Part shown: positions 525 through 59,000 of the stretch, piece after piece
Numbering within the stretch: position 1 is the stretch's first letter
How the letters are laid out: each line of letters begins with the position of its first letter
Assembly (NCBI GenBank): GCA_017510925.1
Contig: JAFWLT010000008.1
Location: 1-64,000 of the forward strand
DNA: 64,000 nucleotides
From: Candidatus Saccharimonadota bacterium
GTDB lineage: Bacteria; Patescibacteriota; Saccharimonadia; Saccharimonadales; Saccharimonadaceae
Direction: 5' to 3'
Made by a program: the position numbers and the translations under genes
The notes under the pieces: generated by a model
The model's database searches: none
What the model saw: the letters and a program-made list of their open reading frames with translations, nothing else
Told to the model about the DNA's origin: nothing

Positions 525-1901
525 CTAGACCCCAGCGAACACACAACGGACGGAACTGCCAAAGTAACGAGAGTTACCGTTGGCCGAATTCACGCGAGAA
601 CTACCGAAGTTAAAATAGTAGGCGCTACCAGAAGAGTAAGAGGACGAAGACCAATAGAAGCCGCCCGTCCCGCCACTGTAGAGCCTATTGGAGCTGTAGT
701 AGCCAGCGAGCAAGAAATTAGGGAGAGTACCTGGGCCTGCGTTGTTATAGAAATTGGCTGAGCTTACAGAATTTTGGGATTCTAAGTTAACACCGTAAGC
801 AGTGGCAAGTTTATAGAAGTCACCTTTCTTATATCCGGTAGTAGAAGTAGCTGAAGTGTCAGAACTATTGCCTGATTTTGGTAGTCTCCAACCTTTTGGA
901 CAGATAGAATAAGGTGCATCCTCGCCATTGCCGGTGACGGCAGTGCCTGAAGCGTCTTTTCCACCGGCAGTAGCAGCCAGCCAGGAATAGTAAGAGTTGC
1001 AACCTGGAGAAGTGTTACAATCTGCCTGATTTGTGGTCTCGTTGCCGGTATTATAGACATAAGCTACAGTACTGTCCGAGAAGCCTGTGGCACTAGAAGC
1101 TGGGAGGGTATAGTAACCTACCCCAGCAGATTCCGGGTAACCAGCTGGAACGTTGGAGGTCTCTGAATATAGTTTGGTGCCACCAGCAAGGTTAAGGTTA
1201 GATGTCATCCAAATTTGGCCATCTGCTAACTTAGCTGCGGTATAAGTTTTGCCATCTCTTGTGTCGGTGAGAGTACCAGAGGTGCCAATGGCCATGTCTG
1301 GGCATGGGTTAAAGGTTTGCATCACGCCAGAAATAGTAGTATCACAAAGTGGATTAACCATGCCGGTAAAGACCAAGCTAAGCGCGTAAGACCCGGCAGA
1401 TTGATTCCAATCAATCTTAGAAGCAAAAGAAAGAGTAGTTTCGTCTTCATTGGTTGCTACATTATTTTCTAGGAGTTTAACACCGGAAACATATGGAATA
1501 AAGTTACCAGAATCTTTTTTATAGCCCCAAGTGTTATCTGTGAGTGAAGCTGCTGTAGATCCTGCTTCTGCAGATAGGGTTGGGATTGTTGCATTTTTGC
1601 CATCTACTGTATTGTCTCTTACCAAGTCTGTAGCATTGCCAGTAGAAGACATAGTAAGTTGGTATCCAGTCATATTATTAGTGGATACTTTAATATTTAA
1701 GTCTTTGCTATCAGATGTTTTAGTATTTGGATTAAGATCTAGTACTACGTTATCAGTAGAAAGAGTAATATTAAGGCTTGGTGCTACGTTCACGATGTAA
1801 TCTACAGTATCTGCATTGGCAGAGCTACCGGAAAAGACCAAAATTGAGAGTACAAATAACAAGCATACGCAACAAATCAGATTACGCACAACCTTAAGCA
1901 T
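525..1901 (-). CDS. Secreted FISUMP-domain surface protein
   Basis: About 458 residues. An N-terminal signal peptide (hydrophobic core ICCVCLLFVLSILVF, then SSANA) precedes a beta-rich domain of about 200 residues with no clear family. The C-terminal half has the Fibrobacter succinogenes major paralogous (FISUMP) pattern: DxRDGKxYxxxKLADGQxWMTSNLNL, CPKGWRLP, YWSSSS and a final SVRCV. The function of FISUMP domains is unknown; a cell-surface role is inferred. I chose the ATG at 1901, not the in-frame ATG at 1922, because a TATAAT lies only 6 nt before it, so the longer start would be upstream of the transcription start. No LPxTG motif or C-terminal anchor is visible, although a sortase gene is next door. 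The FISUMP half is very close to that of the protein at 21836-23536. Confidence 0.8.
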   Translation of the reverse strand: MLKVVRNLICCVCLLFVLSILVFSGSSANADTVDYIVNVAPSLNITLSTDNVVLDLNPNTKTSDSKDLNIKVSTNNMTGYQLTMSSTGNATDLVRDNTVDGKNATIPTLSAEAGSTAASLTDNTWGYKKDSGNFIPYVSGVKLLENNVATNEDETTLSFASKIDWNQSAGSYALSLVFTGMVNPLCDTTISGVMQTFNPCPDMAIGTSGTLTDTRDGKTYTAAKLADGQIWMTSNLNLAGGTKLYSETSNVPAGYPESAGVGYYTLPASSATGFSDSTVAYVYNTGNETTNQADCNTSPGCNSYYSWLAATAGGKDASGTAVTGNGEDAPYSICPKGWRLPKSGNSSDTSATSTTGYKKGDFYKLATAYGVNLESQNSVSSANFYNNAGPGTLPNFLLAGYYSSNRLYSGGTGGFYWSSSSYSSGSAYYFNFGSSRVNSANGNSRYFGSSVRCVFAGV

Positions 1902-1907
1902 AATACT

Positions 1908-1936
1908 ATTATATACTACCAAATTTTATTTTGCAA
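1908..1936 (-). promoter_or_regulatory. Promoter giving a leaderless FISUMP mRNA
   Basis: A TTGCAA -35 (1931-1936) and TATAAT -10 (1908-1913) with a 17-nt spacer on the minus strand. The -10 ends 6 nt before the ATG at 1901, so transcription should start at or next to the start codon. It lies between the sortase stop and the FISUMP gene. Confidence 0.8.
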
Positions 1937-1939
1937 ATG

Positions 1940-2617
1940 CTAATTTATAAGAATTGCACGCACAAATTGGCGAGACATATAAGTCTTTTGTTGATCAGAC
2001 CATTCACCAGCACAAGAGATCAAAGTTAAAGATTCCCTACCCATAGTTGGTGTTCTGATAGCTGTAGCCATATAATCATTAGCATCAGATAGAGCGATCA
2101 TATTATTTTCTACCACCGAGTATTTAAAGATTTCGCCATCGCCACGTTCAATCACGATGATATCGCCCTCTTGGAGGCTTGGCAAAGCCTTAAACACACC
2201 CTGTACGTGTGGACCACCATTGTGTCCATCGATTAAGAGTGTACCACCTTTACCTGGTTTACCAGAATTATAATACCAACCCACATCAAAGATATTGTTT
2301 GGCGTAGAAAGTTCCCCTGCTGCATTTACGCCCATCGGAAGCACTCTAGCTTTAGAAATACCAAGTTTTTCAATCGATAAGTATCTTGGCCGATCAGCAG
2401 CCACCCGATACTCTTCTACCTCCGTAGTGGATGGAGCCACTTCTACCAATTCTTCATCCATTTCTATAGCGATAGCACGCTGGCTACCTTCTTTATCTTC
2501 GTAATAAAGTTTTTCCCAAATTGCAGTCTTAAAGAAAAATACCAAGAACAAAACTAGAAGCAGGATAATTACTACCCACCTAAAGATTTCCCTCCCGTTG
2601 CCTAATTTAAGACTCAT
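1940..2617 (-). CDS. Membrane-anchored sortase
   Basis: 225 residues with one N-terminal membrane segment (about 13-32) followed by an extracellular domain. The sortase triad is visible: histidine in LIDGHNGG (about residue 131), cysteine in LTLISCAGEW (about 203) and arginine in MSRQFVRA (about 217). Sortases cleave a sorting signal and join proteins to a surface nucleophile. The ATG lies inside the last codons of secY (11-nt overlap), suggesting translational coupling to the translocon. The next gene is a secreted FISUMP protein, but it has no classical LPxTG signal, so the substrate is unknown. I cannot assign the sortase class from sequence alone. Confidence 0.85.
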   Translation of the reverse strand: MSLKLGNGREIFRWVVIILLLVLFLVFFFKTAIWEKLYYEDKEGSQRAIAIEMDEELVEVAPSTTEVEEYRVAADRPRYLSIEKLGISKARVLPMGVNAAGELSTPNNIFDVGWYYNSGKPGKGGTLLIDGHNGGPHVQGVFKALPSLQEGDIIVIERGDGEIFKYSVVENNMIALSDANDYMATAIRTPTMGRESLTLISCAGEWSDQQKTYMSRQFVRAILIN

Positions 2618-4031
2618 TTTGAAAATCGTCGTAAGTTATCATTAGAGCTCTAGAATCCACCGACCTTAGATTCTCTAGTGCCACCGTTACTACGATAAGA
2701 AGCCCCGTACCAGAGATAGAAAGCCCTAGTGGTGCTCCAGTTGTAAGGATAAATACATAATCAGTAGCAAATGGTAGCATTGCAATAAAACCTAGTGCCA
2801 AAGCGCCAAAGAGATCTAGTCTTCTTACTACTTTGCCAAGATATTCGGCTGTTTTTTCGCCAGGACGAACGCCTTCAATAAAGCCACCTTGCTTTTGAAG
2901 GTTATCTGCAATCTCTTTGGTATTAAAGATAATCGAGGTGTAGAAATATGTGAAGGCAAATACTAGTAGGAAGTACATAATTGGGTATACAAACCATTGC
3001 CCAGTGATACCATCTGGATACATCGTAGCATAGTTAGAAGCTGATGGTGCTGAAAAGACTGTAGTGAGCCACGCACCTACTTCGTTGCCTGCGTCAAGTG
3101 AGGTAATCACCTGCCCTACAAGCGCCGGCAAAGACAAGAATGCTGTGGCAAAGATTACTGGCACCACGCCAGCTGCAATTAGCTTGATAGGGAGAATTGA
3201 TTTAATACCACCATACATAGAGTTGCCACGCACTCTCTTGGCATAATTAATAGTAATAATTCTCTGTGCCTCGTTGAGCTTGACTAATAGATAAATCACT
3301 ACTAGCATCGCAATTGCAAAACCTACGATAATCCAGAATACCGTAGCGTTGATAGGAAATTCTGCGCCAAATAGATTGAGAGCACCACTTGAAGTGTCTG
3401 TAAGTGCTGAGCCAAGCTGTGCCATAGTATGTGGAAGCTGAGAAATAATTGATGCAAAGATGAGCATAGAAATACCATTGCCAATACCTTGCTCGGTGAT
3501 TAACTCACCCATCCACATCAAGATAAGAGAACCAGCCGTCATAGCTGTAACAGATAGTACCCAGTCTCCCATAGATGGCACGAAATCTGTAGAAATATTT
3601 GCCGAGATGGTAGACTGATACAGGATAAAGATATAAGCAATAGATTGGATAATCGCAAGAGGCACAGTAAGCATTCTAGTCCACTGATTAATCTTTCTTC
3701 TGCCAGTTTCGCCATCGTTAGAAAGCTCTTCTAACTTTGGAATCGCCTTAGATAAAAGCTACATTACGATAGAACCAGTAATATATGGTGAAAGACCAAC
3801 TAGGATAATACTAAACGAAGCCAAACCACCACCAGAAATAAGATTCAAGAAGTTAGAAAAATCCGATTTTTCTAGTAAGTTAGACACGGTCTCCTTAAAG
3901 GTGGAAGCATCGCCCATTGGCACTGGGATCTGAGCAAGTAGTCTATAAGCTACAATAATACCAAGAATAATGCCAATTCTTTTTAGCATATCTTTATTTT
4001 TGAAACTCTTGAAAATCGTCTTGAAATGCAT
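2607..4031 (-). pseudogene. secY: Preprotein translocase subunit SecY, interrupted by an in-frame amber codon
   Basis: The reading frame from 4031 to 2607 encodes a full-length SecY of 474 codons, but codon 91 (3759-3761) is TAG. Upstream are the N-terminus and first membrane segments (VPMGD, SGGGLASFSIILVGLSPYI). Downstream, in the same frame, come LLSKAIPKLEEL, the GETGRRKINQWTR loop and the remaining membrane segments. SecY homologues have glutamine after the I-x-M/I of this helix, so CAG to TAG explains the break. SecY is the essential channel that works with SecA (55957-58605). The start has an AGAGG site 4 nt upstream and lies 10 nt after the GT4 gene. The TAG could be a sequencing or assembly error, a strain polymorphism, a decayed copy or suppressed. 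I cannot tell these apart here. Confidence 0.9.
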
Positions 4032-4041
4032 ATAACCTCTA

Positions 4042-5292
4042 CTATAGTCTTTTCCTATTGTAGCATACTTTCTGATAAATTTCTAGAAACTTATCTATAG
4101 TTTTGTCGAGCGAATGTTCATTTGCTATTTCTATAGATTTTTTAGACATTTTTTCCCTTAAAGCATCGTCGGAAAGTAGCCGATACAAGGCCCCAGACAT
4201 TGCCACCACATCACCTGGTTTAATCAAAAATCCATTCTCAGTATTCTTACAAACTTCGGCTACAGCCCCAGCATCTACAGCAATGAGAGGAAGTCCCGTT
4301 GCAGCTGCCTCAATCAAAACTATGCCCTGAGTTTCTATTTCGGAAGCTGTAGCAAATACATCACCGAGCTTATATAATTCTGCCAAATCTGGGCCAGTTA
4401 CTCTACCTAAGAATCTCACTGAATCTGCCACGCCAATAGACCTAGCCTCTTCCATTAGTCTTGGCTTATCCACTCCATCACCAACCACAACAAACAATGT
4501 TTTTGACAGCTTGTCAATTTTGTTGCTTTTACATCTGTAGAGAAAATCGGCAAAAGCTCTAAGGACTAGCCCTACCTTCTTTTCTGGATCTACGCGCCCT
4601 ATATATAATACTATTGGTACATTTTGTTCTATCTTATATTTTTTATAAATTTCAGCGCTTGGCTTCCCTGGTTTAAATGCCGATAAATCCACACCATTAC
4701 TTACTGCCTCTACTGGCACTCCCAAATTTTGAGTTCCAATTAATTTTTTGATCGCAAGCTTGGTAGGCATCGTCACATAGTCACTCTTTTTTTGTCTTTT
4801 TACGAAATAGGATGACAGCATATTATTTACTGGTTTTCTGGTAAAACCTGGCATTTTGAGCGACTGGGTAAGCACCTCTGGCTGGTTATGCTCAGTAGTA
4901 ACTACTGGAATCTTATTTTTCTTAGCATAAGAAACCGTGGCCACGCCAATCGGGTCCGAACCTTGCACGTGCACTACATCTGGGCGAAACCCAGAAAGTG
5001 CCCTCTTGATCTGGCCAGCTGGAAAAATCGAAGCTTTCAGCCCGTGTTTGTAGAACAGTTTTTTCTTTGGCACATCGTGGATTTGATCTGGATAAACCTT
5101 CACATCCGTAGAGCTAAGATAAACCACTTTTATGCCATCTACCATATCAGTATGGCGATATTTATTTTGAGAAGGTGTAAGTACTAAAACCTCGTGCCCA
5201 CGCGAAACCAAACCTTTTGCGAGATTGTAAGAAAACATTGCTACCCCATTTATCATTGGATAAAAGACTGGCGTAGCTATTGCAATTTTCAT
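4042..5292 (-). CDS. Family 4 glycosyltransferase (GT-B fold)
   Basis: 416 residues. The N-terminal Rossmann half starts MKIAIATPVFYPMINGVA with the glycine loop of GT4 acceptor-binding domains. The C-terminal half has the sugar-nucleotide site: VLYIGRVDPEKKV, then E-x7-E in SEIETQGIVLIEAAATGLP. Closest in look to monoglucosyl-diacylglycerol synthase-type or PimB-type transferases that glycosylate membrane lipids, but the acceptor cannot be read from sequence. The ATG overlaps the TGA of the S41 protease by 4 nt (ATGA), so the two are translationally coupled. It lies 10 nt upstream of secY, in one run with ftsE, ftsX and the PcsB-like gene. Confidence 0.85.
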   Translation of the reverse strand: MKIAIATPVFYPMINGVAMFSYNLAKGLVSRGHEVLVLTPSQNKYRHTDMVDGIKVVYLSSTDVKVYPDQIHDVPKKKLFYKHGLKASIFPAGQIKRALSGFRPDVVHVQGSDPIGVATVSYAKKNKIPVVTTEHNQPEVLTQSLKMPGFTRKPVNNMLSSYFVKRQKKSDYVTMPTKLAIKKLIGTQNLGVPVEAVSNGVDLSAFKPGKPSAEIYKKYKIEQNVPIVLYIGRVDPEKKVGLVLRAFADFLYRCKSNKIDKLSKTLFVVVGDGVDKPRLMEEARSIGVADSVRFLGRVTGPDLAELYKLGDVFATASEIETQGIVLIEAAATGLPLIAVDAGAVAEVCKNTENGFLIKPGDVVAMSGALYRLLSDDALREKMSKKSIEIANEHSLDKTIDKFLEIYQKVCYNRKRL

Positions 5293-6506
5293 AGACTTTT
5301 TGCCTTATCCATTTGAGGATCACGCATTTTGTTGATGTCCTCTACAGTCATTTCTACTTCTACGTCTGGCACTACACCATTATTATTAATAGAGTCGCCA
5401 TTTGGAGTAAGCCATTCTGCAGTAGTAACCTTAAGAATCCCACCACCAGAAAGATTATACATCTTTTGTACTACGCCTTTACCATAAGTCTTGGTACCTA
5501 CAATTGTAGCTTTTTTGTGATCTTTAAGAGCTGCTGCTGTGATTTCTGACGCTGAAGCCGTAGAACCATTTACAAGTACGATAGTCTTCATATCTTTGAG
5601 AATGGCTTTACCAGAAGATGTAGACATTCTTTCTTCACCAAAGTGCGTTGATTTTTGGGTTAAGACCAACTTGCCATCGAGCCACAAAGAAAGTAAATCT
5701 TGAGCTGCCGATACATAGCCACCACCATTGCCTCTAAGATCCAAAATTACTTTAGAAATGCCTTTTTCTTTAAATTTCGCGGCTTCTTTTTGAACTTCCA
5801 TCCCAGTATTATTATCAAATCTAGTCACAGTGATAATTGCCGTATTGCCGTCATAAGTTACATATTCAGAAACATTATTGATCTCTTCTCTAATCATTGT
5901 AAAATCTAATTCTTTGCCGTCTCTAGCTACAGTCACTGTCACTTCTGTGCCTGGATCGCCTCTAAGGACTTTAGCGATTTCTGAAGAAGACCAAGTATAA
6001 ACCTCTTCACCATTTACTTTGTATATAATATCGCCAATCAAAATACCAGCTCTAAGTGCTGGGTTATTTGGAAGAAGCCGGAGCACCCTCACATAACCAT
6101 CGCGAAGTCCCATTTCTACACCGATACCACCACCAACATTGCCGTGGAGTACATTGTTAGTATAAATTTCGGCTTCGTCTTTATCCATATATTCAGTATA
6201 AACATCGCCTACAGCTTCCACCATACCTTTTTTGGCGCCCTCAGAAAGCTTAACCTCATCTACTTCACCATTGTAAGCTTCGAGAAGTTTGTTATAAATC
6301 TCATCGAGACCAGAACGGTTGACCTCTGCATTTTTAGATGCACCGAGATAAACCCCAAATCCACCAAAGATATTATTAAAGTTAGCACCGATTACCCCAC
6401 CAATTACAGCAAGTACAGCGCCAATAATAATTGCATTACCGAGTGAAACCTTTTTTTCTTGCCACTCAGGATAATCTGTTTTTTTCACAGTTTTCTTTTT
6501 TGCCAT
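5289..6506 (-). CDS. ctpA: C-terminal processing protease, S41 family with PDZ domain
   Basis: 405 residues: N-terminal membrane anchor (about 20-45), a PDZ domain around residues 115-195 (GGIGVEMGLRDG, LRAGILIGDIIYKVNGEEV) and the S41 protease core. The catalytic serine lies in NGSTASASEI (about 318) and the lysine in TYGKGVVQ (about 343). Such proteases trim or degrade extracytoplasmic proteins, including cell-wall hydrolases. It follows the PcsB-like hydrolase gene, so that protein is a plausible substrate (inference). A TAAAAT -10 (6513-6518) lies 6 nt before the ATG with TTTGAA 17 nt further up, giving a leaderless start inside the run. Confidence 0.92.
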   Translation of the reverse strand: MAKKKTVKKTDYPEWQEKKVSLGNAIIIGAVLAVIGGVIGANFNNIFGGFGVYLGASKNAEVNRSGLDEIYNKLLEAYNGEVDEVKLSEGAKKGMVEAVGDVYTEYMDKDEAEIYTNNVLHGNVGGGIGVEMGLRDGYVRVLRLLPNNPALRAGILIGDIIYKVNGEEVYTWSSSEIAKVLRGDPGTEVTVTVARDGKELDFTMIREEINNVSEYVTYDGNTAIITVTRFDNNTGMEVQKEAAKFKEKGISKVILDLRGNGGGYVSAAQDLLSLWLDGKLVLTQKSTHFGEERMSTSSGKAILKDMKTIVLVNGSTASASEITAAALKDHKKATIVGTKTYGKGVVQKMYNLSGGGILKVTTAEWLTPNGDSINNNGVVPDVEVEMTVEDINKMRDPQMDKAKSL

Positions 6507-37466: not shown

Positions 37467-38222
37467 CTACTCTTTTGCGATATTTTTCTTAAACTCATCA
37501 ATTTCTGGCCCAAGAGTTTTACGAAACTTTTTTACCCCAAGTTTAGCGGCATTGGTTTGAGCATCTTGTTTAGAATGTCCTTCGCCAGAGGCAAATAATT
37601 CACCATTGATATACATACCTACTACAAAATGTTTATCGTGATCTGGGCCATCCTCTCTAAGGGTCCGATAAGTAGGTGTTACCCCTTCTACTTTTTGTGA
37701 AAGCTCTTGCACGTAAGATTTTGGATCTCTCCAAGTACCTTCCTCTATAATCGTATCGATCTTACACAAAATATGCTTATTAATAAATTCTTTCGCTGTA
37801 TCATATCCCTGATCTAGATAGATTGCACCAATGACAGCTTCAAAACAATCAGCCAAAATCACTTCGTGAGCTCTTTCAGACCCCTGTTTCTCACCTTTTG
37901 ATAAACGAACTAATGGCTCGTAGCCAAGCTCAATCCCAGCCGCTCCAATAGATTCTGTACGAACGAGCGCAGACCTAAGAGCAGTCATAATTCCCTCAGA
38001 TTCGTTGTATCTTCGATACAAGAAATCCGAAGAAACTAGTTCCAAAACTGCATCGCCAAGATATTCTAGTCTTTCGTTATGCTCCACTCCGGCTGAACGG
38101 TGTTCATTTACATAACTTCTATGAGTAAGAGCCGTTACAAGTAACATAATATCGTTAAACTCAAACCCTAATTTCTCCTTAGCGAATCTCTCGTAAGGAG
38201 TTGTATCCATAGTTTTTTCCAT
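37467..38222 (-). CDS. rnc: Ribonuclease III
   Basis: 251 residues. The catalytic signature ERLEYLGDAVLEL is followed by the second acidic site (DCFEAVIGAIYLDQG); the C-terminal dsRNA-binding domain (KSYVQELSQK ... GEGHSKQDAQTNAAKLGVKKF) is complete. It cuts double-stranded RNA, including rRNA precursors. It is the last gene of the leuS-to-rnc run and starts 5 nt after the Nudix stop. A second in-frame ATG four codons later is equally possible. Confidence 0.96.
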   Translation of the reverse strand: MEKTMDTTPYERFAKEKLGFEFNDIMLLVTALTHRSYVNEHRSAGVEHNERLEYLGDAVLELVSSDFLYRRYNESEGIMTALRSALVRTESIGAAGIELGYEPLVRLSKGEKQGSERAHEVILADCFEAVIGAIYLDQGYDTAKEFINKHILCKIDTIIEEGTWRDPKSYVQELSQKVEGVTPTYRTLREDGPDHDKHFVVGMYINGELFASGEGHSKQDAQTNAAKLGVKKFRKTLGPEIDEFKKNIAKE

Positions 38223-38227
38223 TTTTT

Positions 38228-38848
38228 TTAATATTCCCCTGCGCGAATTTTGCGCTTTGCAATTAACATTAACTTTTCTATATCGTCATATTCAATTACA
38301 TCAAGAGCGTCGGTAAAGTTAAACCATTTAATACCCTTCATCCATTTTTCGGCTGTTGGTGTCTCACGCGCATCTAATGCCTGAACTAGATAAATTTGCG
38401 TGGTCATCAAAACCAATTTGTCTGCTCTACGATATTTAAAATGAATTTTACCAAGCCAAGTGAGGACATCAAAATTGCGAAGACCAGTTTCTTCTTCAAT
38501 TTCCCGTCTAGCTGTCATTTTAGCTGTTTCGCCTGGCTCAATATGCCCCTTAGGGATCGTCCAACGTCCCTTAGAGTCCTGGATCAACAATATTTCAACA
38601 TCTTTTTTGTCAGCTGTCAAGCGAAAAACAATCCCACCAGAGGTTGGCTCACGCACAATTTCTTGAATTGCGGTCTTTTTTCTAAAAACTGCCGAAGTAA
38701 TTTTCTTTAGAGGTGACTGTTTGATTGCTTCCGTCGGTAAAGCTTCTGGTACCTTAAGCGCTCTTCTTTGCGCTGTCGGCTCCCCCGTCGGTTCCTTTAC
38801 CATCATCGGTCTTTTCGGCATCCTTTTTGTTGGTCCGTTTTGGTTCAT
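38228..38848 (-). CDS. Nudix hydrolase with basic N-terminal extension
   Basis: 206 residues. A Nudix box (G-x5-E-x7-REUxEExGU) is intact in [23 protein letters not shown]. Nudix enzymes cleave nucleoside diphosphates linked to another group; the substrate is not evident. About 60 basic, proline-rich residues precede the domain. With the ATG at 38848 the gene overlaps nusB by 95 nt in another frame. In-frame ATGs closer to the domain would shorten this, so the exact start is uncertain. Confidence 0.85.
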
Positions 38849-39290
38849 CTTCTTCTACTACAATTCCGAGCTTTTTAAAGGCAGTACCGAGCACTCCATT
38901 TACGAATCTAGATGAAGAGTCGGAACCAAAAGCCTTGGCTAGCTCCACAGCCTCGTTGATAGCAACTTTCGGTGGCACAGTATCTTGGCATTCCGAAAGT
39001 TCATAAAGTCCCATCCGTAGCACATTGCGATCAATTGCTGAAATTGCCGAAATCGGCCATTCTGGTGCCATTGGGGCGAGAGCAGTATCGAGAGTTTCAA
39101 AATTGTCTACTACTTTATGAGTGAGATCATAAACAAACTCGGTATCACCCAAAGTCCCTTCATATGGCTCAATATTTTTCGCAATAATTGTGTCAAGATC
39201 GACTTCTGGGTCTTTTGCGAGAGTCCTGCACTCGTATTCATACAAGCTTTGCAGAACAATAACTCTACCTAAATGTCGATTACTTGCCAT
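38754..39290 (-). CDS. nusB: Transcription antitermination factor NusB with acidic/basic tail
   Basis: 178 residues. The helical NusB fold is recognisable by [12 protein letters not shown] near the start and by [46 protein letters not shown] near the end. NusB with S10 promotes antitermination on rRNA operons. A tail of about 30 Asp/Lys/Gly-rich residues follows and overlaps the Nudix gene. It starts 3 nt after rpmF. Confidence 0.94.
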
Positions 39291-39293
39291 AAA

Positions 39294-39470
39294 CTACGCT
39301 TTCTTTTTTACTGTTTTTGAGGTTTTTACTCTGAGGTTTGGGGTCTTTTTCTTGGTTTCGAAGACCTTTACCGGAGATGTCTTATTAACTTTGCGAGCCA
39401 ATTTGAGACGGAGATGGCTTCTTCTAAGCCCCGTCTTTCTTGGGCTACTCTGTTTTTTAGGTTCAGGCAT
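39294..39470 (-). CDS. rpmF: 50S ribosomal protein L32, cysteine-free
   Basis: 58 residues: MPEPKKQSSPRKTGLRRSHLRLKL, matching the L32 start (MAVPKxKxSxxRxxxRRSHxxL), then a very basic tail. The usual zinc-binding CxxC...C pairs are missing and there is no cysteine in the protein. An AAGGAGC site lies 4 nt before the ATG. It stands just upstream of nusB. Confidence 0.88.
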   Translation of the reverse strand: MPEPKKQSSPRKTGLRRSHLRLKLARKVNKTSPVKVFETKKKTPNLRVKTSKTVKKKA

Positions 39471-39514
39471 TTTGCTCCTTAATTATATATAATTTTACCC
39501 ATTGTACCACTATT

Positions 39515-39715
39515 TTAGAGATTACGCAAGGCTTTCTTGATAGCAGGACGGTCAAAACCCACGATTTTCTGCCCATTTATCTCCGTAACTGGCACAGCGG
39601 TGATGTCAGGCTCTTTGGTAGCATCCATTTCTTTGTATTCTACCCCCATCTCGTCTAGCCAATTCATTAAAGCATGACAATACGCGCAGGTTGGAGTTGT
39701 ATATACTTTTATCAT
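39515..39715 (-). CDS. Glutaredoxin-like small thioredoxin
   Basis: 66 residues with a CAYC active site (TTPTCAYCHAL), the cis-proline loop (TAVPVTEING) and the GFDRPAI helix: a NrdH/glutaredoxin-type minimal thioredoxin fold. It probably reduces disulfides in the cytoplasm. The partner is unknown; no ribonucleotide reductase is in the window. It overlaps the SpoU gene by 4 nt (ATGA). Confidence 0.9.
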   Translation of the reverse strand: MIKVYTTPTCAYCHALMNWLDEMGVEYKEMDATKEPDITAVPVTEINGQKIVGFDRPAIKKALRNL

Positions 39716-40215
39716 AAATTCATTATAGCATAAATAGCAATGCTTGCCGCTACGGACACATTGAAGGATTCTTTTTTACCTTTCATCGGGATTTCTACAA
39801 AAAGATCAATTAAATTATAAAAATCCTCAGAGATACCATCAACTTCCTCGCCCAAAAATAGCACAATTTTATCGTCTAATTTTTCCTTCAACTTCGGATC
39901 ATTGATTTGACAAATATCCTGTTTTATGTTGTTTTCTAAGCCCACAATCTGGTAACCTTTGGCTTTTAAACCTAGAATTTTAGCTTTAATATCATCTGTG
40001 TCGATAATATCAAGCATATCTTCTGCCCCTAGGGCAGTTTTGTGAATCTCTTTATCTAATTTTTCTCTTAGATGTGGTAAGAGATTTTTATCGTGCACCC
40101 TCGGCGTATAACCAGACAAAATCACAGAAGATACCCCAAAACCTTCAGCAGATCTAAGAATTGCCCCCACATTGTAACAGGATCTAATATTATGTAAAAC
40201 TAAAACGATTTCCAT
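39712..40215 (-). CDS. SpoU/TrmH-family RNA 2'-O-methyltransferase
   Basis: 167 residues, the short form without an extra RNA-binding domain. Motif 1 is in VLHNIRSCYNVGAILRSAEGFG, motif 2 in VLFLGEEVDGIS and motif 3 in VEIPMKGKKESFNVSVAASIAIY, which build the SPOUT knot and SAM site. The target (tRNA or rRNA) is not evident. It is coupled to the Erm-like gene by a TAATG overlap. Confidence 0.9.
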   Translation of the reverse strand: MEIVLVLHNIRSCYNVGAILRSAEGFGVSSVILSGYTPRVHDKNLLPHLREKLDKEIHKTALGAEDMLDIIDTDDIKAKILGLKAKGYQIVGLENNIKQDICQINDPKLKEKLDDKIVLFLGEEVDGISEDFYNLIDLFVEIPMKGKKESFNVSVAASIAIYAIMNL

Positions 40216-40775
40216 TATAGCTCCTTTATCCTTTTTGCCTCAAATAACACCGTTGGCACTGCCGGTGGTGGAGTGAAATCTGTCGGCTTCATAGGATAAC
40301 GAATTTTAGTTTGGTAACTAGAAATTAGCTGCATCCCGAGTTGAGAAGTATAGTGTCTATCTGTATTCAAAAGCTTCAAAGCAAATTGCTTTTGCAAAAT
40401 TAAATAAAACGCCTCTGGTGGATTTTCTGCTTCGATTAGTTTGTGCACAATCTTCGAACTTAAATGAAATGGTGGATTAGCAAAAACCTTATATTCTTCT
40501 CTTGGGAGCTCAAAATCCAAAAAATCCTGCTCTACAATTTCTACATTTAATACTCCGGTTTTTTTCAGATTTTCCCTTAGCTTATTAGCAGTTTTTGGGT
40601 CCGACTCAACAGCAATCACTCTTGCTGCCTTTTTAGAAAGAGCCGTCGTGATTACCCCAGAACCAGCCCCAACCTCTACTACTAAATCTCGCTTTTTGAT
40701 ATTTGAGTGCCCAATCAACATCAGAGCTAATCTTGGGCTTCTTAAAAAATGTTGCGATAAAAGATGGTTGCGCAT
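40215..40775 (-). CDS. Erm/KsgA-family rRNA adenine dimethyltransferase, short form
   Basis: 186 residues. It has SQHFLRSPRLALMLI (Erm/KsgA N-terminus), the SAM loop VVEVGAGSGVIT, an acidic residue in VIAVESD, and the target motif FANPPFHLSSKIV. The last has NPPF where KsgA has NIPY (true in the second copy at 60251) and Erm has NIPF. The C-terminal helical domain of KsgA/Erm is largely absent. True KsgA is encoded separately, so this paralogue may methylate 23S rRNA as Erm does; that is inference. It starts 1 nt after leuS and overlaps the SpoU gene. Confidence 0.82.
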   Translation of the reverse strand: MRNHLLSQHFLRSPRLALMLIGHSNIKKRDLVVEVGAGSGVITTALSKKAARVIAVESDPKTANKLRENLKKTGVLNVEIVEQDFLDFELPREEYKVFANPPFHLSSKIVHKLIEAENPPEAFYLILQKQFALKLLNTDRHYTSQLGMQLISSYQTKIRYPMKPTDFTPPPAVPTVLFEAKRIKEL

Positions 40776-40776
40776 T

Positions 40777-43026
40777 CTATACTACTAAATTCACTAGCTT
40801 GGCTTTTTTGACAAAAATCTGCTTTTTGATACCATCTTCGGTATATTTTTGCACCTTTCTATCAGAAAGTACCATATCCATAATTTTCTTTTCGTCTTCT
40901 AAATCATCGGCAGATACTTCTAATTTAGCACGAAGTTTGCCATTGATTTGCACTACTACTGTCACAGTATCAGATACTAAATATTTTTCATCCCACTTTG
41001 GCCATTCGTCGTCAGCATCTAGTTTTTCTAGCATCTCTGATGCAAGATGTGGTGCAAATGGCTTCAATAACTTAGCCAAAGTTACCAAATCTTCAGAAGA
41101 AGCACCTACCTTATAAAGCTCATTTACATATTCCATAAGTGCCGCCACCGCAGTGTTGAAGTTATACTTGTGAATGTCTTCGGTAACTTTCTTAATAGTC
41201 TTATTTCTGATAATAATATTATCTACTTCTTTGATATCGCCTAGTAAGTTGTAACAACGATTAAGGAAGCGGTACACACCACCAACCGATCGTGGGTCCC
41301 ATGCTGCATCCATATCATATGGACCAATAAACATTTCATAGGTCCTTAAAGTATCTGCACCGTAACCGTCATTAATTACATCAAGAGGATCAATCACGTT
41401 CCCCTTAGACTTACTCATTTTCTTACCATCTGGCGCGTTGATATAACCATTATAGAGGAGTCTCTTGATTGGTTCTCTAAATGGTAGATATCCCTGGTCA
41501 GCAAAGAATTTACACCAAAATCTAATATAAAGAAGATGTGCTACGGCGTGGTCTGCACCTACATAATAATCTACTGGCTCCCAATACTTAATAGCTTCAG
41601 AATCCCAAGCAGCTTTGTTATCGTGTGGCGAAGCATAACGCCAAAGATACCAAGAAGAACAGGCATAGCCATCCAAAGTATCGGTTTCTCTAGTCATTTC
41701 TTCGCCGTCGATAGTAACCTTGAGCCAATCTTTAGCTTTGGCTAAAGCAGAACGCCCAGAATTGTCTGGTTGATAATCTTCTACCTCTGGGATTATTACT
41801 GGAAGTTGATCTTCTGGGATTGGATGTGGATTTCCCTCTTTATCGTAAGCGATTGGGATCGGGCAACCCCAATATCTTTGTCTGGAAATTAACCAATCAC
41901 GCATTTTGTAGGTAACTTTTGGCGTACCATAAAGATCTCTGTCCACGAGCTCTGTCTCTACGATAGGAAGATCGAATTTTTCGGCAAATTCGCGATCTCT
42001 ATCGTCCATTGCTGGTACTGCCATAATCGCACCAGTGCCATAACCAGCTAGTACATAATCTGCTACCCAAATTGGAATTTTTTCTTTGGTCGCTGGATTA
42101 ACAGCATAAGACCCTGTAAATACACCGGTTTTTTCCTTGTTTTCTTGGCGCTCTACTTCTGATTTTTTCAATGCATCAGCTTTGTATTTCATTACAGCAT
42201 CTTTACAGTCATCAGTTACAATAAAATCAAGCCCTTGGTACTCTGGGGCAAGCACGATAAACGTGGCACCCTTAATTGTATCCGGACGCGTGGTAAAGAC
42301 GGTAATATTCTTGCCATTATCAGCTTTAAAATCGATTTCGGCGCCTGCAGATCTTCCGATCCAATTCTTCTGCATTGTTTTGATTTTTTCTGGCCACTCC
42401 AGATTATCAATTTCATCAAGAAGTTCATCGGCATATTCAGTGATCTTAAAGAACCACTGCTTCATCTTTTTCTTTTCTACTTCGTGACCACAACGCCAAC
42501 ATTTACCATTTTCTACCTGCTCATTCGCAAGCACAGTTTGGTCTTCTGGGCACCACCACTGGTAAGACTCTTTTTGATAAGCCAAGCCCTTCTTGTAGAG
42601 TTGCAAAAAACACCATTGGGTCCATTTGTAATATTCTGGGTCCGAAGTATTTACCTCTCTAGACCAATCAATTGCAAAACCAAGCTTTTTGGCTTGTTTT
42701 CTGAAGTTATCAATGTTAACTTTTGTTATTTCTTGAGGTGCTGTACCAGTTTTAATAGCATAATTCTCGGCTGGAAGCCCAAAAGTATCATAACCGAATG
42801 GCCTAAGTACATTTAGCCCTTGCTGACGATAGAAACGAGTTAAAACATCTACGATAGTAAAATTACGAACGTGCCCAACGTGAAGACCAGCCCCAGATGG
42901 GTATGGGAACATCTCGGCAAGCATCATTTTTGGCATGCCGTCAATTTCTTTAGCAGAAAAAGCCTCAGTTTCTTCCCAAATTTTTTGCCATTTTTCTTCA
43001 ATTTTGAGTGGTTCGTATCTATCCAT
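40777..43026 (-). CDS. leuS: Leucyl-tRNA synthetase
   Basis: 749 residues, shorter than the usual 800-870. HIGH motif in FPYPSGAGLHVGHVRN, a zinc-like insert (CPEDQ ... CWRCG), the CP1 editing domain with FTTRPDT and GTGAIMAVPAMDDRDREFA, and KMSKS in GKKMSKSKGN. The reduction lies mainly after the editing pocket (between PIVETEL and YKMRDWLISRQRYWG) and at the C-terminus. The -10 box TATAAT (43034-43039) lies 7 nt before the ATG. Confidence 0.96.
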   Translation of the reverse strand: MDRYEPLKIEEKWQKIWEETEAFSAKEIDGMPKMMLAEMFPYPSGAGLHVGHVRNFTIVDVLTRFYRQQGLNVLRPFGYDTFGLPAENYAIKTGTAPQEITKVNIDNFRKQAKKLGFAIDWSREVNTSDPEYYKWTQWCFLQLYKKGLAYQKESYQWWCPEDQTVLANEQVENGKCWRCGHEVEKKKMKQWFFKITEYADELLDEIDNLEWPEKIKTMQKNWIGRSAGAEIDFKADNGKNITVFTTRPDTIKGATFIVLAPEYQGLDFIVTDDCKDAVMKYKADALKKSEVERQENKEKTGVFTGSYAVNPATKEKIPIWVADYVLAGYGTGAIMAVPAMDDRDREFAEKFDLPIVETELVDRDLYGTPKVTYKMRDWLISRQRYWGCPIPIAYDKEGNPHPIPEDQLPVIIPEVEDYQPDNSGRSALAKAKDWLKVTIDGEEMTRETDTLDGYACSSWYLWRYASPHDNKAAWDSEAIKYWEPVDYYVGADHAVAHLLYIRFWCKFFADQGYLPFREPIKRLLYNGYINAPDGKKMSKSKGNVIDPLDVINDGYGADTLRTYEMFIGPYDMDAAWDPRSVGGVYRFLNRCYNLLGDIKEVDNIIIRNKTIKKVTEDIHKYNFNTAVAALMEYVNELYKVGASSEDLVTLAKLLKPFAPHLASEMLEKLDADDEWPKWDEKYLVSDTVTVVVQINGKLRAKLEVSADDLEDEKKIMDMVLSDRKVQKYTEDGIKKQIFVKKAKLVNLVV

Positions 43027-43044
43027 AAAATATATTATAACACA

Positions 43045-43072
43045 AAAATCTCCCTTTTAACAGGGAGATTTT
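43045..43072 (-). terminator. Intrinsic terminator after rpsH
   Basis: AAAATCTCCCT (43045-43055) pairs with AGGGAGATTTT (43062-43072) around a 6-nt loop; on the minus strand TTTTTG follows. It ends the L3-to-S8 run before the leuS promoter. Confidence 0.9.
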
Positions 43073-43086
43073 TGCCAAAAGCCTGA

Positions 43087-43488
43087 TTACCAAACTCTGA
43101 TTAGAATTTCGCCACCAAGATGGTTTTTCTTGGCTTCTTTACCAGTCATTAGACCTTTTGAGGTAGATACAATTACCATACCACGACCAGATTTAATGGT
43201 TGGGATTTCAGCTGCACCGGAATATACACGGCGACCTGGTTTAGAAATCTTAGTGATTTCAGAAATCTTAGCTACTGTGCCTGGTTCATTAATTACTACG
43301 TGAAGTAATGCACGAGGAGTACCCTCTACCACGTCACAGGAAGCAAGATAACCATTTTTTACCAAAATTTCTGCGACCTTAAGCTTCAATTTTGAAGTAG
43401 GAACGAGAATTTCAGTCTTATTTACCATCACTGCATTACGAATGCGAGAGATGAAGTCAGCGATTTGATCTGTAGATTGTAATGACAT
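43087..43488 (-). CDS. rpsH: 30S ribosomal protein S8
   Basis: 133 residues. The N-terminus (DQIADFISRIRNAVMVNK) and the C-terminal RGMVIVSTSKGLMTGKEAKKNHLGGEILIRVW are diagnostic. It binds the central domain of 16S rRNA and represses the spc operon in E. coli. It is the last gene of the L3-to-S8 run; L6, the usual next gene, has been separated by 16 kb. Confidence 0.97.
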   Translation of the reverse strand: MSLQSTDQIADFISRIRNAVMVNKTEILVPTSKLKLKVAEILVKNGYLASCDVVEGTPRALLHVVINEPGTVAKISEITKISKPGRRVYSGAAEIPTIKSGRGMVIVSTSKGLMTGKEAKKNHLGGEILIRVW

Positions 43489-43503
43489 ATTTTCTCCTTT
43501 CTC

Positions 43504-43773
43504 CTACCAGCTACTCTTAGTTACACCAGGAATTTCACCTTTGCTTGCTTTTTCCCGGAAATTAATTCTAGATAAACCAAAGCGACGCATATAACCACGT
43601 GGACGACCGTCCAAGAGGTCGCGATTCTTAAGGCGAGTAGGCGATGCGTTTCTTGGGAGTTTTTGAAGACCTTCAAGATCACCAGCAGCCTTTAGTTCTG
43701 CGCGTTTTGCTTTGTATTTCTCATTCATTTTGCGCCGTTTTTCGTCGCGAAGTACTGCAGATTTCTTAGCCAT
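43504..43773 (-). CDS. rpsN: 30S ribosomal protein S14, cysteine-free
   Basis: 89 residues with [51 protein letters not shown], the conserved C-terminal half. No CxxC pairs are present, so this is the zinc-independent long type. Overlaps the L5 stop by 1 nt (TAATG). Confidence 0.97.
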
Positions 43774-54692: not shown

Positions 54693-55960
54693 AAGTTCAG
54701 CTTAGCTTCCAGCTCAGTTAGCGCAGCCTTCTCAACCGAAGATACCGTGGCAAACCCTTTAATCCCTGATCCTGCAAACTCACGCGATAATTCAATCATC
54801 TTAGCCTTATCAATCCCCTTAATGATATTTGGCATATTATCGTATTTGTCTACTTCTTCATTAGCAAAGTAATTCTCGGCATAATAATCAGCAATTTGCC
54901 CCACAGTCTGTGCCCCCATCTGAAATCTACCTAGCGCATATTGTTTAGCTGCCTCAAAATCTTTGTCAGAAACTTCCCCGTTAAGAGCTTTCATTAACTC
55001 TGTCTGAATCAAAGAGAATAATTTTTCGGCATTTTCTTCGTTTACTTCACCATCAAAATCCCAATAAGTACTGTGCGCGTTGCTGCAAATCGCACTTCCC
55101 ATCCCATAAACCAAGCCCCGTTTTCTAGCTACCCCAAAGATTTTAGAGTTCATTGTGCCATTTAAGATATGATTGAGACAGTTCATCGCAAATACTTCTT
55201 TAGAGTTAAGATGCCTTGGCGTTACCAAAGAAAACCCAAAAGTAATATTAGAAGCATCTTTTCTTCTGATTGCCACCATCTCTGTAGAATGAAGATCGGC
55301 AATTGGGATCTCAAATTTTTCACCTTCTTTTAGAGGCCAAGATTCTAATTCACTTATAATTTTGTGCTTCCGACCGTGAATTTTGCCAGCAATAATAAAC
55401 ATCATATTTTTGGCTGTATGAGTGCGCCTATAATGTTCCCGGATATCTTTAAGCTCGATATTAGAGATTGTCTCGCGTCTCTCAGCAAGATCCAAAATAT
55501 CTTCACCTACTGCTTGCTGTACTCTAGGCCACAATAATCTGTAATAATCATTCATATAGCCTGTAAGCTCCGAGCGAACATTGGCTTTTTCAGACTTCAG
55601 TTCCTCTTCATTGAATCTCGGCTCAGCAATAGAAAGTCTCTGGAGTTCCATAATTCTGTCCCACTCAAAATCAGCACATTCTGTCTCATAGCAAACCGAT
55701 ACATCAGAGGTCCAGGCATTGTGATATGCCCCATTCTTGGTAAATTCAGCCTCAAAATCTTGCTCATCTTTATATTTGGCGTTAGCACCAAAAGCTAGAT
55801 GTTCTACCACATGAGGGAGCTCGTAAATATCCTTATTTTTGGCATAAAGCATACCAGCCCTAAATTGAATCCTAGTAGCCATCACCGTAGCACCAGGGAT
55901 GTCAATTAAAAGCCCACGCGCACCATTCTTAAGTTGGACTTCTTCTACAGCGTGTTTCAC
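54689..55960 (-). CDS. M16-family zinc peptidase
   Basis: 423 residues. The inverse zinc motif HxxEH is in LPHVVEHLAFG (about residue 50), with the distal glutamate in ELKSEKANVRSEL about 75 residues later. A second, non-catalytic M16 half follows. Such enzymes (pitrilysin/processing peptidase type) degrade or trim peptides. No signal peptide, so cytoplasmic. The start is GTG at 55960, overlapping the TGA of secA by 4 nt (GTGA). Confidence 0.88.
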   Translation of the reverse strand: MKHAVEEVQLKNGARGLLIDIPGATVMATRIQFRAGMLYAKNKDIYELPHVVEHLAFGANAKYKDEQDFEAEFTKNGAYHNAWTSDVSVCYETECADFEWDRIMELQRLSIAEPRFNEEELKSEKANVRSELTGYMNDYYRLLWPRVQQAVGEDILDLAERRETISNIELKDIREHYRRTHTAKNMMFIIAGKIHGRKHKIISELESWPLKEGEKFEIPIADLHSTEMVAIRRKDASNITFGFSLVTPRHLNSKEVFAMNCLNHILNGTMNSKIFGVARKRGLVYGMGSAICSNAHSTYWDFDGEVNEENAEKLFSLIQTELMKALNGEVSDKDFEAAKQYALGRFQMGAQTVGQIADYYAENYFANEEVDKYDNMPNIIKGIDKAKMIELSREFAGSGIKGFATVSSVEKAALTELEAKLNF

Positions 55961-58605
55961 TTTTTCTTCTTCTTGGACTTCTTTTTCTTAGACTTTTTAG
56001 TAGCTTTTTTCTGCCCAGAACCAGTTGCTCCTGGGGTCTTTTTCTTAAATTCGTCGTCCAAGTTTTTCTCACCAGCCGAGATTTCGTTTACACCTTTATC
56101 GTTACCAGATGCCATCTTAGTAAGCTCAGATTCATATTCTTCGCCATCAGTGACATTATCTTCTGCAGCTTCTGTAGGAGTAATCGTGAGAAGAATCTTA
56201 AGTACTTCTTCTCTAAGATTTCTCTGAAGACCATCAAATAATTTTTGCGATTCTGAACGGTATTCTACCAAAGGATCTCTCTGGCCAACTGAACGCCAGT
56301 GGATACCCTCACGAAGATGCTGCATGTTCTCAAGATGTTGCATCCAGAGCATATCAAGCACCTTTAGATATACCTCACGTTCAACTTTACGCATCGTTTC
56401 TGCGCCAAAACGCTCTTCTTGTTTCTTGTAGGCTTCTTCGATAGCCTCAAGAGCTAATTGATAACGCTCTTTCTCTTTGCGTTTAACACCGATCTCGTGA
56501 ATAAGGTCATCATCAAAGCTAAACACTGCCTTAAATTCTTCATCGAAATTCTTATTTACTCTAGAAGAAAATTCGGTAAGAGTTTTAGCTTCATCTCTCA
56601 TCAATCTCTTGATTTCTGGGAAAATGTCGTCACCCTCAAGAATCTTCCTACGCATCATATAAACTACGCGACGGTGTCTATTGATAACGTTATCGTACTG
56701 TACCACATTTTTACGGGAATCAAAGTTAAAGCCTTCAATGCGTTTTTGAGCAGATTCAAGAGTCTTAGAAATTGCCCGAGTCTGAATTGGTGTATCCTCA
56801 TCTACGCCAAGACGAGTCATTAACATCTTTACTCTGTCACCCTGGAAAATACGCATCAAATCATCTTCACAAGATACAAAGAATTGAGTAGTACCAGGAT
56901 CACCCTGACGGCCACCACGGCCTCTAAGCTGATTATCTACACGTCTAGAATCGTGACGGGCTGAACCAATCACCACAAGACCACCAAGTTCTTTTACGCC
57001 TTTACCTAGTTTAATATCGGTACCACGACCTGCCATATTAGTAGCAAGCGTAATTGCACCTTTTTCACCGGCTTTAGCGATAATTGCAGCCTCACGCTCG
57101 TTGTTCTTAGCGTTCAAAATCTCATATGGTAGATTAAATTGATCTAGATACTTAGCGATTTCCTCGTTATTTGCAATAGAATCAGAACCAACAAGTACTG
57201 GCTGGCCCTTAGCGTGATACTCTTGAATTGCCTTTGCAATAGCTTTGAGCTTGCCTGCCTTAGTCTTATAAATCAAATCGTCCTTATCTACACGAATAAT
57301 TGGCTTATTAGGTGGAATTTGAATTACATCAAGCGCATAAATCTGCTGGAATTCCTCTGCTTCAGTAAAGGCTGTACCAGTCATACCAGAAAGCTTATTA
57401 TAAAGCCTAAAGAAGTTCTGGAACGAAATAGTAGCAAGTGTCATTGATTCTTGTTTGACTGCTACGCCTTCTTTAGCTTCAATTGCCTGATGAAGACCTT
57501 CGTTATAGCGACGACCTTGCATCAAACGCCAAGTATATTCATCTACGATAATTACTTCGCCAGAGTTAGTTACCACATAATCTTTGTCTCTCTTAAAGAG
57601 GACTTCGGCTCTTAAAGCTTGCTCCAAATGATAAACTAGAGGTGTATTCTTGGTAGAATAAAGATTTTCTACCCCTAACATCTTCTGGATTTTATCGATT
57701 CCCTCATCTGTAAGGGTAACAGAACGACGTTTTTCATCCAAAATATAATCTTCTGGGGTAAGTCTAGCCGTAATCTTAGCAAATTGATAGTATAATGCTG
57801 GATTATCGCCAGCTGGAGCAGAGATAATAAGAGGAGTTCTGGCCTCATCGATTAAGATTGAGTCTACCTCATCTACGATCGCAAAGTTAAGCTCTCTCTG
57901 ACGAAGATTCTGTACTTCAGAAGTCATATTATCTCTAAGATAATCAAAGCCAAATTCATTGTTAGTGCCGTAGGTAATATCGGCATTGTAAGCCTCTTTT
58001 CTGGTACAAGGTTTAAGATGACGGAATCTTTCATCATCGTGGGCTTCGTTTTCATATTTTGCGTCATAAATAAATGAAGCATCGTTGATAATTACACCTA
58101 CTGATACCCCAAGAAAATCATAAACTGGACCATTCCAGCCAGCATCACGCTGAGCAAGATAATCGTTTACCGTAACTACGTGCACACCTTTACCAGTAAG
58201 TGCGTTAAGATAAGCTGGGAGCATTGCTACGAGAGTTTTACCTTCACCGGTCTTCATTTCGGCTACAGCGCCTTCGTGAAGTACCATACCACCGATAAGC
58301 TGCACATCGTATGGACGCATTTTAAGGACACGTTTTGATGCCTCTCTAGCTACGGCAAAAGCTTCTGGGAGGATTTTATCTAAAGATTCTTTATTTTCTA
58401 TGCGCTTTTTAAACTTTTCGGTCTGAGCTTTTAAGTCTTTTACGCTCATTTTTTCATATTTTGGCTCTAATTCATTAATAGCCTGAGCCTTTTTCCATAG
58501 TTTTTTCAGAACTTTTTTCTGTGCGTCACCAAACACCCCCTGCAAGAATTTGGTCAATGCAGTTTTGTCAGCCAATTTATCACTGGGCTTTTTCTCTTTT
58601 GCCAT
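55957..58605 (-). CDS. secA: Preprotein translocase ATPase SecA
   Basis: About 882 residues. Walker A in AEMKTGEGKTLVAMLPAYL, DEAD-type VDEVDSILIDEARTPLIIS, and VLVGSDSI, GRGTDIKLG, GRGGRQGDPG motifs of the second motor half. The C-terminal zinc-binding segment found in many SecA proteins is missing; the chain ends in a poly-lysine tail. The ATG at 58605 has a GAGGAGAAG site and a GTGCTATAAT -10 about 25 nt upstream, overlapping the hpf stop. It works with SecY, whose gene here has an amber codon. Confidence 0.97.
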   Translation of the reverse strand: MAKEKKPSDKLADKTALTKFLQGVFGDAQKKVLKKLWKKAQAINELEPKYEKMSVKDLKAQTEKFKKRIENKESLDKILPEAFAVAREASKRVLKMRPYDVQLIGGMVLHEGAVAEMKTGEGKTLVAMLPAYLNALTGKGVHVVTVNDYLAQRDAGWNGPVYDFLGVSVGVIINDASFIYDAKYENEAHDDERFRHLKPCTRKEAYNADITYGTNNEFGFDYLRDNMTSEVQNLRQRELNFAIVDEVDSILIDEARTPLIISAPAGDNPALYYQFAKITARLTPEDYILDEKRRSVTLTDEGIDKIQKMLGVENLYSTKNTPLVYHLEQALRAEVLFKRDKDYVVTNSGEVIIVDEYTWRLMQGRRYNEGLHQAIEAKEGVAVKQESMTLATISFQNFFRLYNKLSGMTGTAFTEAEEFQQIYALDVIQIPPNKPIIRVDKDDLIYKTKAGKLKAIAKAIQEYHAKGQPVLVGSDSIANNEEIAKYLDQFNLPYEILNAKNNEREAAIIAKAGEKGAITLATNMAGRGTDIKLGKGVKELGGLVVIGSARHDSRRVDNQLRGRGGRQGDPGTTQFFVSCEDDLMRIFQGDRVKMLMTRLGVDEDTPIQTRAISKTLESAQKRIEGFNFDSRKNVVQYDNVINRHRRVVYMMRRKILEGDDIFPEIKRLMRDEAKTLTEFSSRVNKNFDEEFKAVFSFDDDLIHEIGVKRKEKERYQLALEAIEEAYKKQEERFGAETMRKVEREVYLKVLDMLWMQHLENMQHLREGIHWRSVGQRDPLVEYRSESQKLFDGLQRNLREEVLKILLTITPTEAAEDNVTDGEEYESELTKMASGNDKGVNEISAGEKNLDDEFKKKTPGATGSGQKKATKKSKKKKSKKKKK

Positions 58606-58637
58606 ACTTCTCCTCACTTTCCCCCTATTATAGCACA

Positions 58638-59000
58638 CTAACTTCTCTTGATAAAGAGATTTTTAAGGCTTCTTTTTTGGCGATGTGGTTGCATTTCTAG
58701 CTTATAGCGTCGAATCTGCCCTGTCACCTTAGCCTCAAGTAGATCCACCCCAGCAAAAATGTTTGTACATTCATCTTTAGCAGCAATTACTTTGCCACCA
58801 GGAATTTCCATTGCCACGGAAATTTCGTATTTATCAGTCTTACCCTTACCAATTTCGGTTACAATTACCTTGGCTACGATGTCTTTTTTGAAGCCTCTAG
58901 GAAGATATTTATCAAGCTTTCCAATCCGTTTTTCAACGTATTTTCTTAGGCTTTCTTCTACTTTATAACCATTCCCAGTAATCTCAATTTTTTCTATCAT
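58638..59000 (-). CDS. hpf: Ribosome hibernation promoting factor (HPF/RaiA family, short)
   Basis: 120 residues, the short type without the C-terminal dimerisation domain. IEKIEITGNGYKVEESLRKYVEKRIGKLDKYLP matches the beta-alpha-beta start of the family, and the basic C-terminus follows. It binds the 30S decoding region and stops translation during rest. It is next to secA, a linkage also seen in Firmicutes. An AGGAGGAAT site precedes the ATG. Confidence 0.92.
   Translation of the reverse strand: MIEKIEITGNGYKVEESLRKYVEKRIGKLDKYLPRGFKKDIVAKVIVTEIGKGKTDKYEISVAMEIPGGKVIAAKDECTNIFAGVDLLEAKVTGQIRRYKLEMQPHRQKRSLKNLFIKRS

Follow-up and report, generated by a model that had tools for sequence, protein, structure and literature searches.

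The secY locus and its genomic setting

The DNA analysed here, referred to as the window, is a stretch of 64,000 nucleotides that corresponds to positions 1-64000 of contig C7 in a 9-contig assembly, which totals 661,755 bases and is estimated to be 98.64% complete. The minus strand of the window carries a secY gene of 474 codons and a terminal stop (2607..4031), which is interrupted at codon 91 by a TAG (3759..3761, minus strand). Translation of the frame from 4031 to 2607 revealed this TAG, at 3761-3759, as its single internal stop, and the sequence-only reading from which this analysis started had therefore described both the frame and its coordinates correctly. It had also placed SecY on both flanks of the TAG, which is corroborated by the profile search conducted with the two halves of the gene. 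Codons 1-90, lying 5' of the TAG (3762..4031, minus strand), match positions 2-71 of TIGR00967, and the part after the TAG matches positions 103-408; this profile is the top match for each half, although each alone scores below the full-length cut-off. When the TAG is read through, the whole stretch matches positions 1-304 of the 306 of PF00344 at 309.8 bits, with the one TAG inside, and the whole-protein profile match (TIGR00967/PF00344) assigns the product to the SecY translocase channel. The longest open reading frame 3' of the TAG encodes 355 aa (2607..3674, minus strand) and begins at an in-frame ATG located 29 codons past the TAG.

A profile search of the assembly, covering the whole of its 661,755 bases and 98.64% estimated completeness, returned no second secY, so the earlier suggestion that another copy might exist was not borne out, and nothing that could replace SecY was found in the assembly. 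The genome has one intact match to SecE, and SecA is encoded in the window at 55957-58638. Since secY is single-copy, the SecE match is intact and SecA is present in the window, SecY should be needed by the organism. The named relatives are Candidatus Saccharibacteria, mostly metagenome-assembled, many of them from the gut of sheep, goat, yak or water buffalo. As the named congeners are mostly of this kind, the source genome is probably a metagenome-assembled genome as well, derived from an uncultured Saccharibacterium of the gut.

The block in which secY lies (window 525-6506) also contains a sortase-like gene whose best match is class F, a FISUMP-domain protein, a glycosyltransferase and a C-terminal processing protease. 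It is located apart from the ribosomal genes (S8, S14) read at 43087-43773. In the region 37467-43488 of the window, leuS (749 aa by its open reading frame) lies directly 3' of rpsH (S8) and is followed by RsmA/Erm-like and RlmB-like genes, resembling rRNA methyltransferases, and by nusB and RNase III; rplF does not come next after rpsH, unlike in the usual order of the spc operon. Elsewhere in the genome, Rfam RF00023 gave a tmRNA match of 82.2 bits at G000:C4:179031-179385, which was not reported by ARAGORN.

Codon 91 in relatives and stray stops in sister assemblies

The secY survey encompassed 174 genomes of the genus, the source genome included, and secY was found in 159 of them. In 29 of 29 congeners CAG or CAA stands at codon 91, and 78 further relative sequences have CAG (54) or CAA (24) there. 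Glutamine thus occupies this position in all 107 relatives read, as the sequence-only reading had held for homologues; this total counts sequences, and some of the 78 may be the same genomes under public names. Among the matches listed, no other congener has an internal secY stop: the flagged sequences were fetched and realigned, and the stops either lay at query position 472, at the C-terminus, or disappeared. The nearest genome, G018, shares 96% identity with the source organism in SecY and about 79% in aligned DNA and, given these values, is a different species. It had been proposed that relatives with CAG at this position would make the TAG a sequencing error. The relatives do agree with that expectation; strictly, the alignments show that the codon 91 stop is private to the source assembly, and no more than this.

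The remainder of the gene appears to be well preserved. In comparison with G018, crude counts give a pS of 0.64, a pN of 0.017 and a pN/pS of 0.026, and at the 310 sites that are invariant in 29 relatives only two private changes are present, A48T and the stop itself. The low ratio and the scarcity of private changes at invariant sites show, as far as substitution counts can, that secY is not decaying and is under strong purifying selection. Neither the several lesions nor the relaxed selection of a decaying pseudogene was observed, the gene carrying one lesion only.

The frequency of such stops in sister assemblies was evaluated by comparing the rpoB and rpoC genes of the window with those of congeners and by fetching and realigning the candidate stops. 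Three were retained. In rpoB, G108 has a TGA at residue 165, where the source genome has TGG, and G015 has a TAA at residue 456, where the source genome has TAT; in rpoC, G106 has a TAA at residue 1023, within a less conserved stretch, where the source genome has AAG. Other apparent rpoC stops were discarded: those near codons 4-11 precede the conserved start, and another, near 1285, is terminal. The resulting background is 3 stops in about 356,000 codons (about 150 x 1130 + 145 x 1289, the genome counts being approximate). At this rate, about 0.6 stops would be expected in the secY survey (about 75,000 codons), and 1 was observed; for the source genome, with 206,776 codons in open reading frames of at least 90 aa, some of them spurious, about 1.7 would be expected, and 1 was observed. 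With secY included, there are 4 stops in 431,000 codons; on the assumption that all of them are random substitutions, this is equivalent to a frequency of wrong bases of roughly 1e-4 per base.

The stops of G108, G015 and G106, known from the assemblies alone, resemble that of secY in being isolated nonsense codons in a conserved gene with both flanks in frame; they differ from it in lying in other genes and in being TGA or TAA, whereas that of secY is TAG. Since a cell can no more do without these polymerase subunits than without SecY, such stops seem best explained as base-level faults of draft assemblies or as non-viable alleles. Errors of local assembly, and possibly frames that are chimeric, have been discussed for uncurated metagenome-assembled genomes (PMC7111523). 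The source assembly may contain another such fault: in a DUF362-domain gene (C4:117458-118356), whose G018 counterpart encodes 294 aa, one base appears to be missing by comparison with G018. The resulting apparent frameshift, near C4:117.7 kb, leaves overlapping open reading frames of 117 and 199 aa, and this may be a second base fault or a real lesion. The other frameshifts examined against G018 were attributable to over-extended, merged or doubtful open reading frames of G018; two more apparent frameshifts, at C1:9.4 kb and C4:175 kb, stand apart from this set.

The lesion in secY is private, and its rate matches this background. We consider it very probable, from these comparisons, that the TAG is either a wrong consensus base or a minority or non-viable allele that entered a draft and probably metagenome-derived genome; the comparable stops that sister assemblies show in rpoB and rpoC, at about the same rate, and the lack of anything found in the genome that could read through the TAG favour this proposition. 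On the other side, the contig is long and secY has only one other private change (A48T) at the sites invariant in the relatives, so that the area is not visibly error-ridden. A related but unlikely explanation is that of a true nonsense allele present at appreciable frequency, whose carriers would be dead or sick, or would survive by near-cognate read-through, and which the assembler picked. It would account for a private single-base change in a secY otherwise free of lesions, but such an allele should be rare, given that the gene is single-copy and strongly conserved, and comparable lesions occur in sister rpoB and rpoC at about the expected background rate.

TAG as a stop codon and the capacity to decode it

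TAG terminates 131 of the 605 open reading frames of the source genome. TAG closes 106 of the conserved genes that were paired with G018, and 100 of these end within 6 residues of the end of the G018 protein; the stop used by G018 at TAG-ended genes of the source genome is TAA in 43 cases and TGA in 7. Because so many conserved genes end there, nearly all at the place where the G018 protein ends, TAG is a working stop in this genome. The gene for RF1 is intact (462.5 bits, no stop inside). The earlier statements that TAG ends many other genes and that general recoding is excluded are thus upheld by the 106 conserved genes and the intact RF1. The genome-wide comparison of in-frame stops, based on 502 open reading frames matched to G018, found a convincing internal stop in secY only among about 500 conserved genes. 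The other four hits fell in three short open reading frames of 91-94 aa, which looked antisense or spurious when judged by eye. The signs of UAG reassignment are therefore lacking in this assembly: in-frame TAGs at conserved sense positions are limited to the one in secY, no tRNA with a CUA anticodon was found, RF1 is retained and TAG is not rare as a stop.

Every known change of stop codon in bacteria reassigns UGA (PMC8629427), to glycine in Absconditabacteria/Gracilibacteria and to tryptophan in Mycoplasmatales and others. These systems share with secY an in-frame stop at a conserved residue, but they are genome-wide and concern UGA, whereas the present case involves one TAG codon, with RF1 present and no cognate tRNA.

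A more restricted form of decoding, in which an amber suppressor tRNA, or a decoding system altered by mutation in this strain, inserts glutamine or some other residue at a fixed TAG, was also considered. Laboratory amber alleles of essential genes in Escherichia coli survive by means of suppressor tRNAs; they are comparable to secY in having an amber codon in an essential gene, but no suppressor tRNA was found here. A glutamine codon is one base from amber, and about 1.4% of the genome is estimated to be missing, so that a suppressor gene could sit in a gap. Against this, 45 tRNA genes were found that make up a complete standard set, none of them with the anticodon CUA, and the amber suppressor offered as one explanation by the sequence-only reading was thus not recovered. 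The tRNAs for glutamine and tyrosine are normal-looking: tRNA-Tyr has the same sequence as its G018 counterpart, and the anticodon stem of tRNA-Gln(CUG) has the normal 5 bp, with compensatory changes. This speaks against the idea, drawn from PMC13092985, of read-through by a tRNA whose anticodon stem has 4 bp. Titles and abstracts of the literature on secY, amber and suppressor tRNA yielded nothing on point. As no CUA tRNA was found, RF1 is intact and TAG is a working stop, the suppression of a single fixed amber is not supported, within an assembly that is slightly incomplete, and we regard it as highly improbable.

It is equally improbable that a fixed TAG allows a low level of SecY through natural read-through, by a near-cognate tRNA-Gln or by a suppressor tRNA located in an assembly gap; if this were true, termination efficiency would limit protein export. 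A split SecY, in which codons 1-90 and a product re-started at the ATG at 3674 would form a working translocon, draws on the 355-aa open reading frame that this ATG opens, but is scarcely credible, since the fragments would lose the conserved stretch LLSKAIPKLEELSNDGETGRRKINQWTR between them, no in-frame ATG, GTG or TTG lies closer to the TAG, and no such split was seen in other congeners among the matches listed.

Interpretation of the codon 91 stop

Four explanations had been put forward for the TAG: a wrong base, a mixed population, an amber suppressor or another secY. The first two are the ones that remain, favoured by the background in rpoB and rpoC, and neither the suppressor nor the second gene was found. 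Under the reading of a base error or minority allele, living cells would make SecY from an ordinary continuous gene with glutamine at codon 91; the TAG would have arisen as a sequencing or assembly error, or as a rare or non-viable allele picked by the assembler, and no translational mechanism would be needed. We infer that the TAG is not fixed in living cells and that glutamine is to be expected in the reads. Our verdict is that the TAG in secY is not a real biological feature.

By our estimate, about one or two in-frame stops in essential genes are to be expected in each draft genome of this kind. This calls for caution: where a draft genome shows an in-frame stop in an essential gene, claims of recoding or suppression should wait for the reads. 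Were the TAG nevertheless fixed in this organism, secY would offer a striking example of an essential gene dependent on stop-codon read-through.
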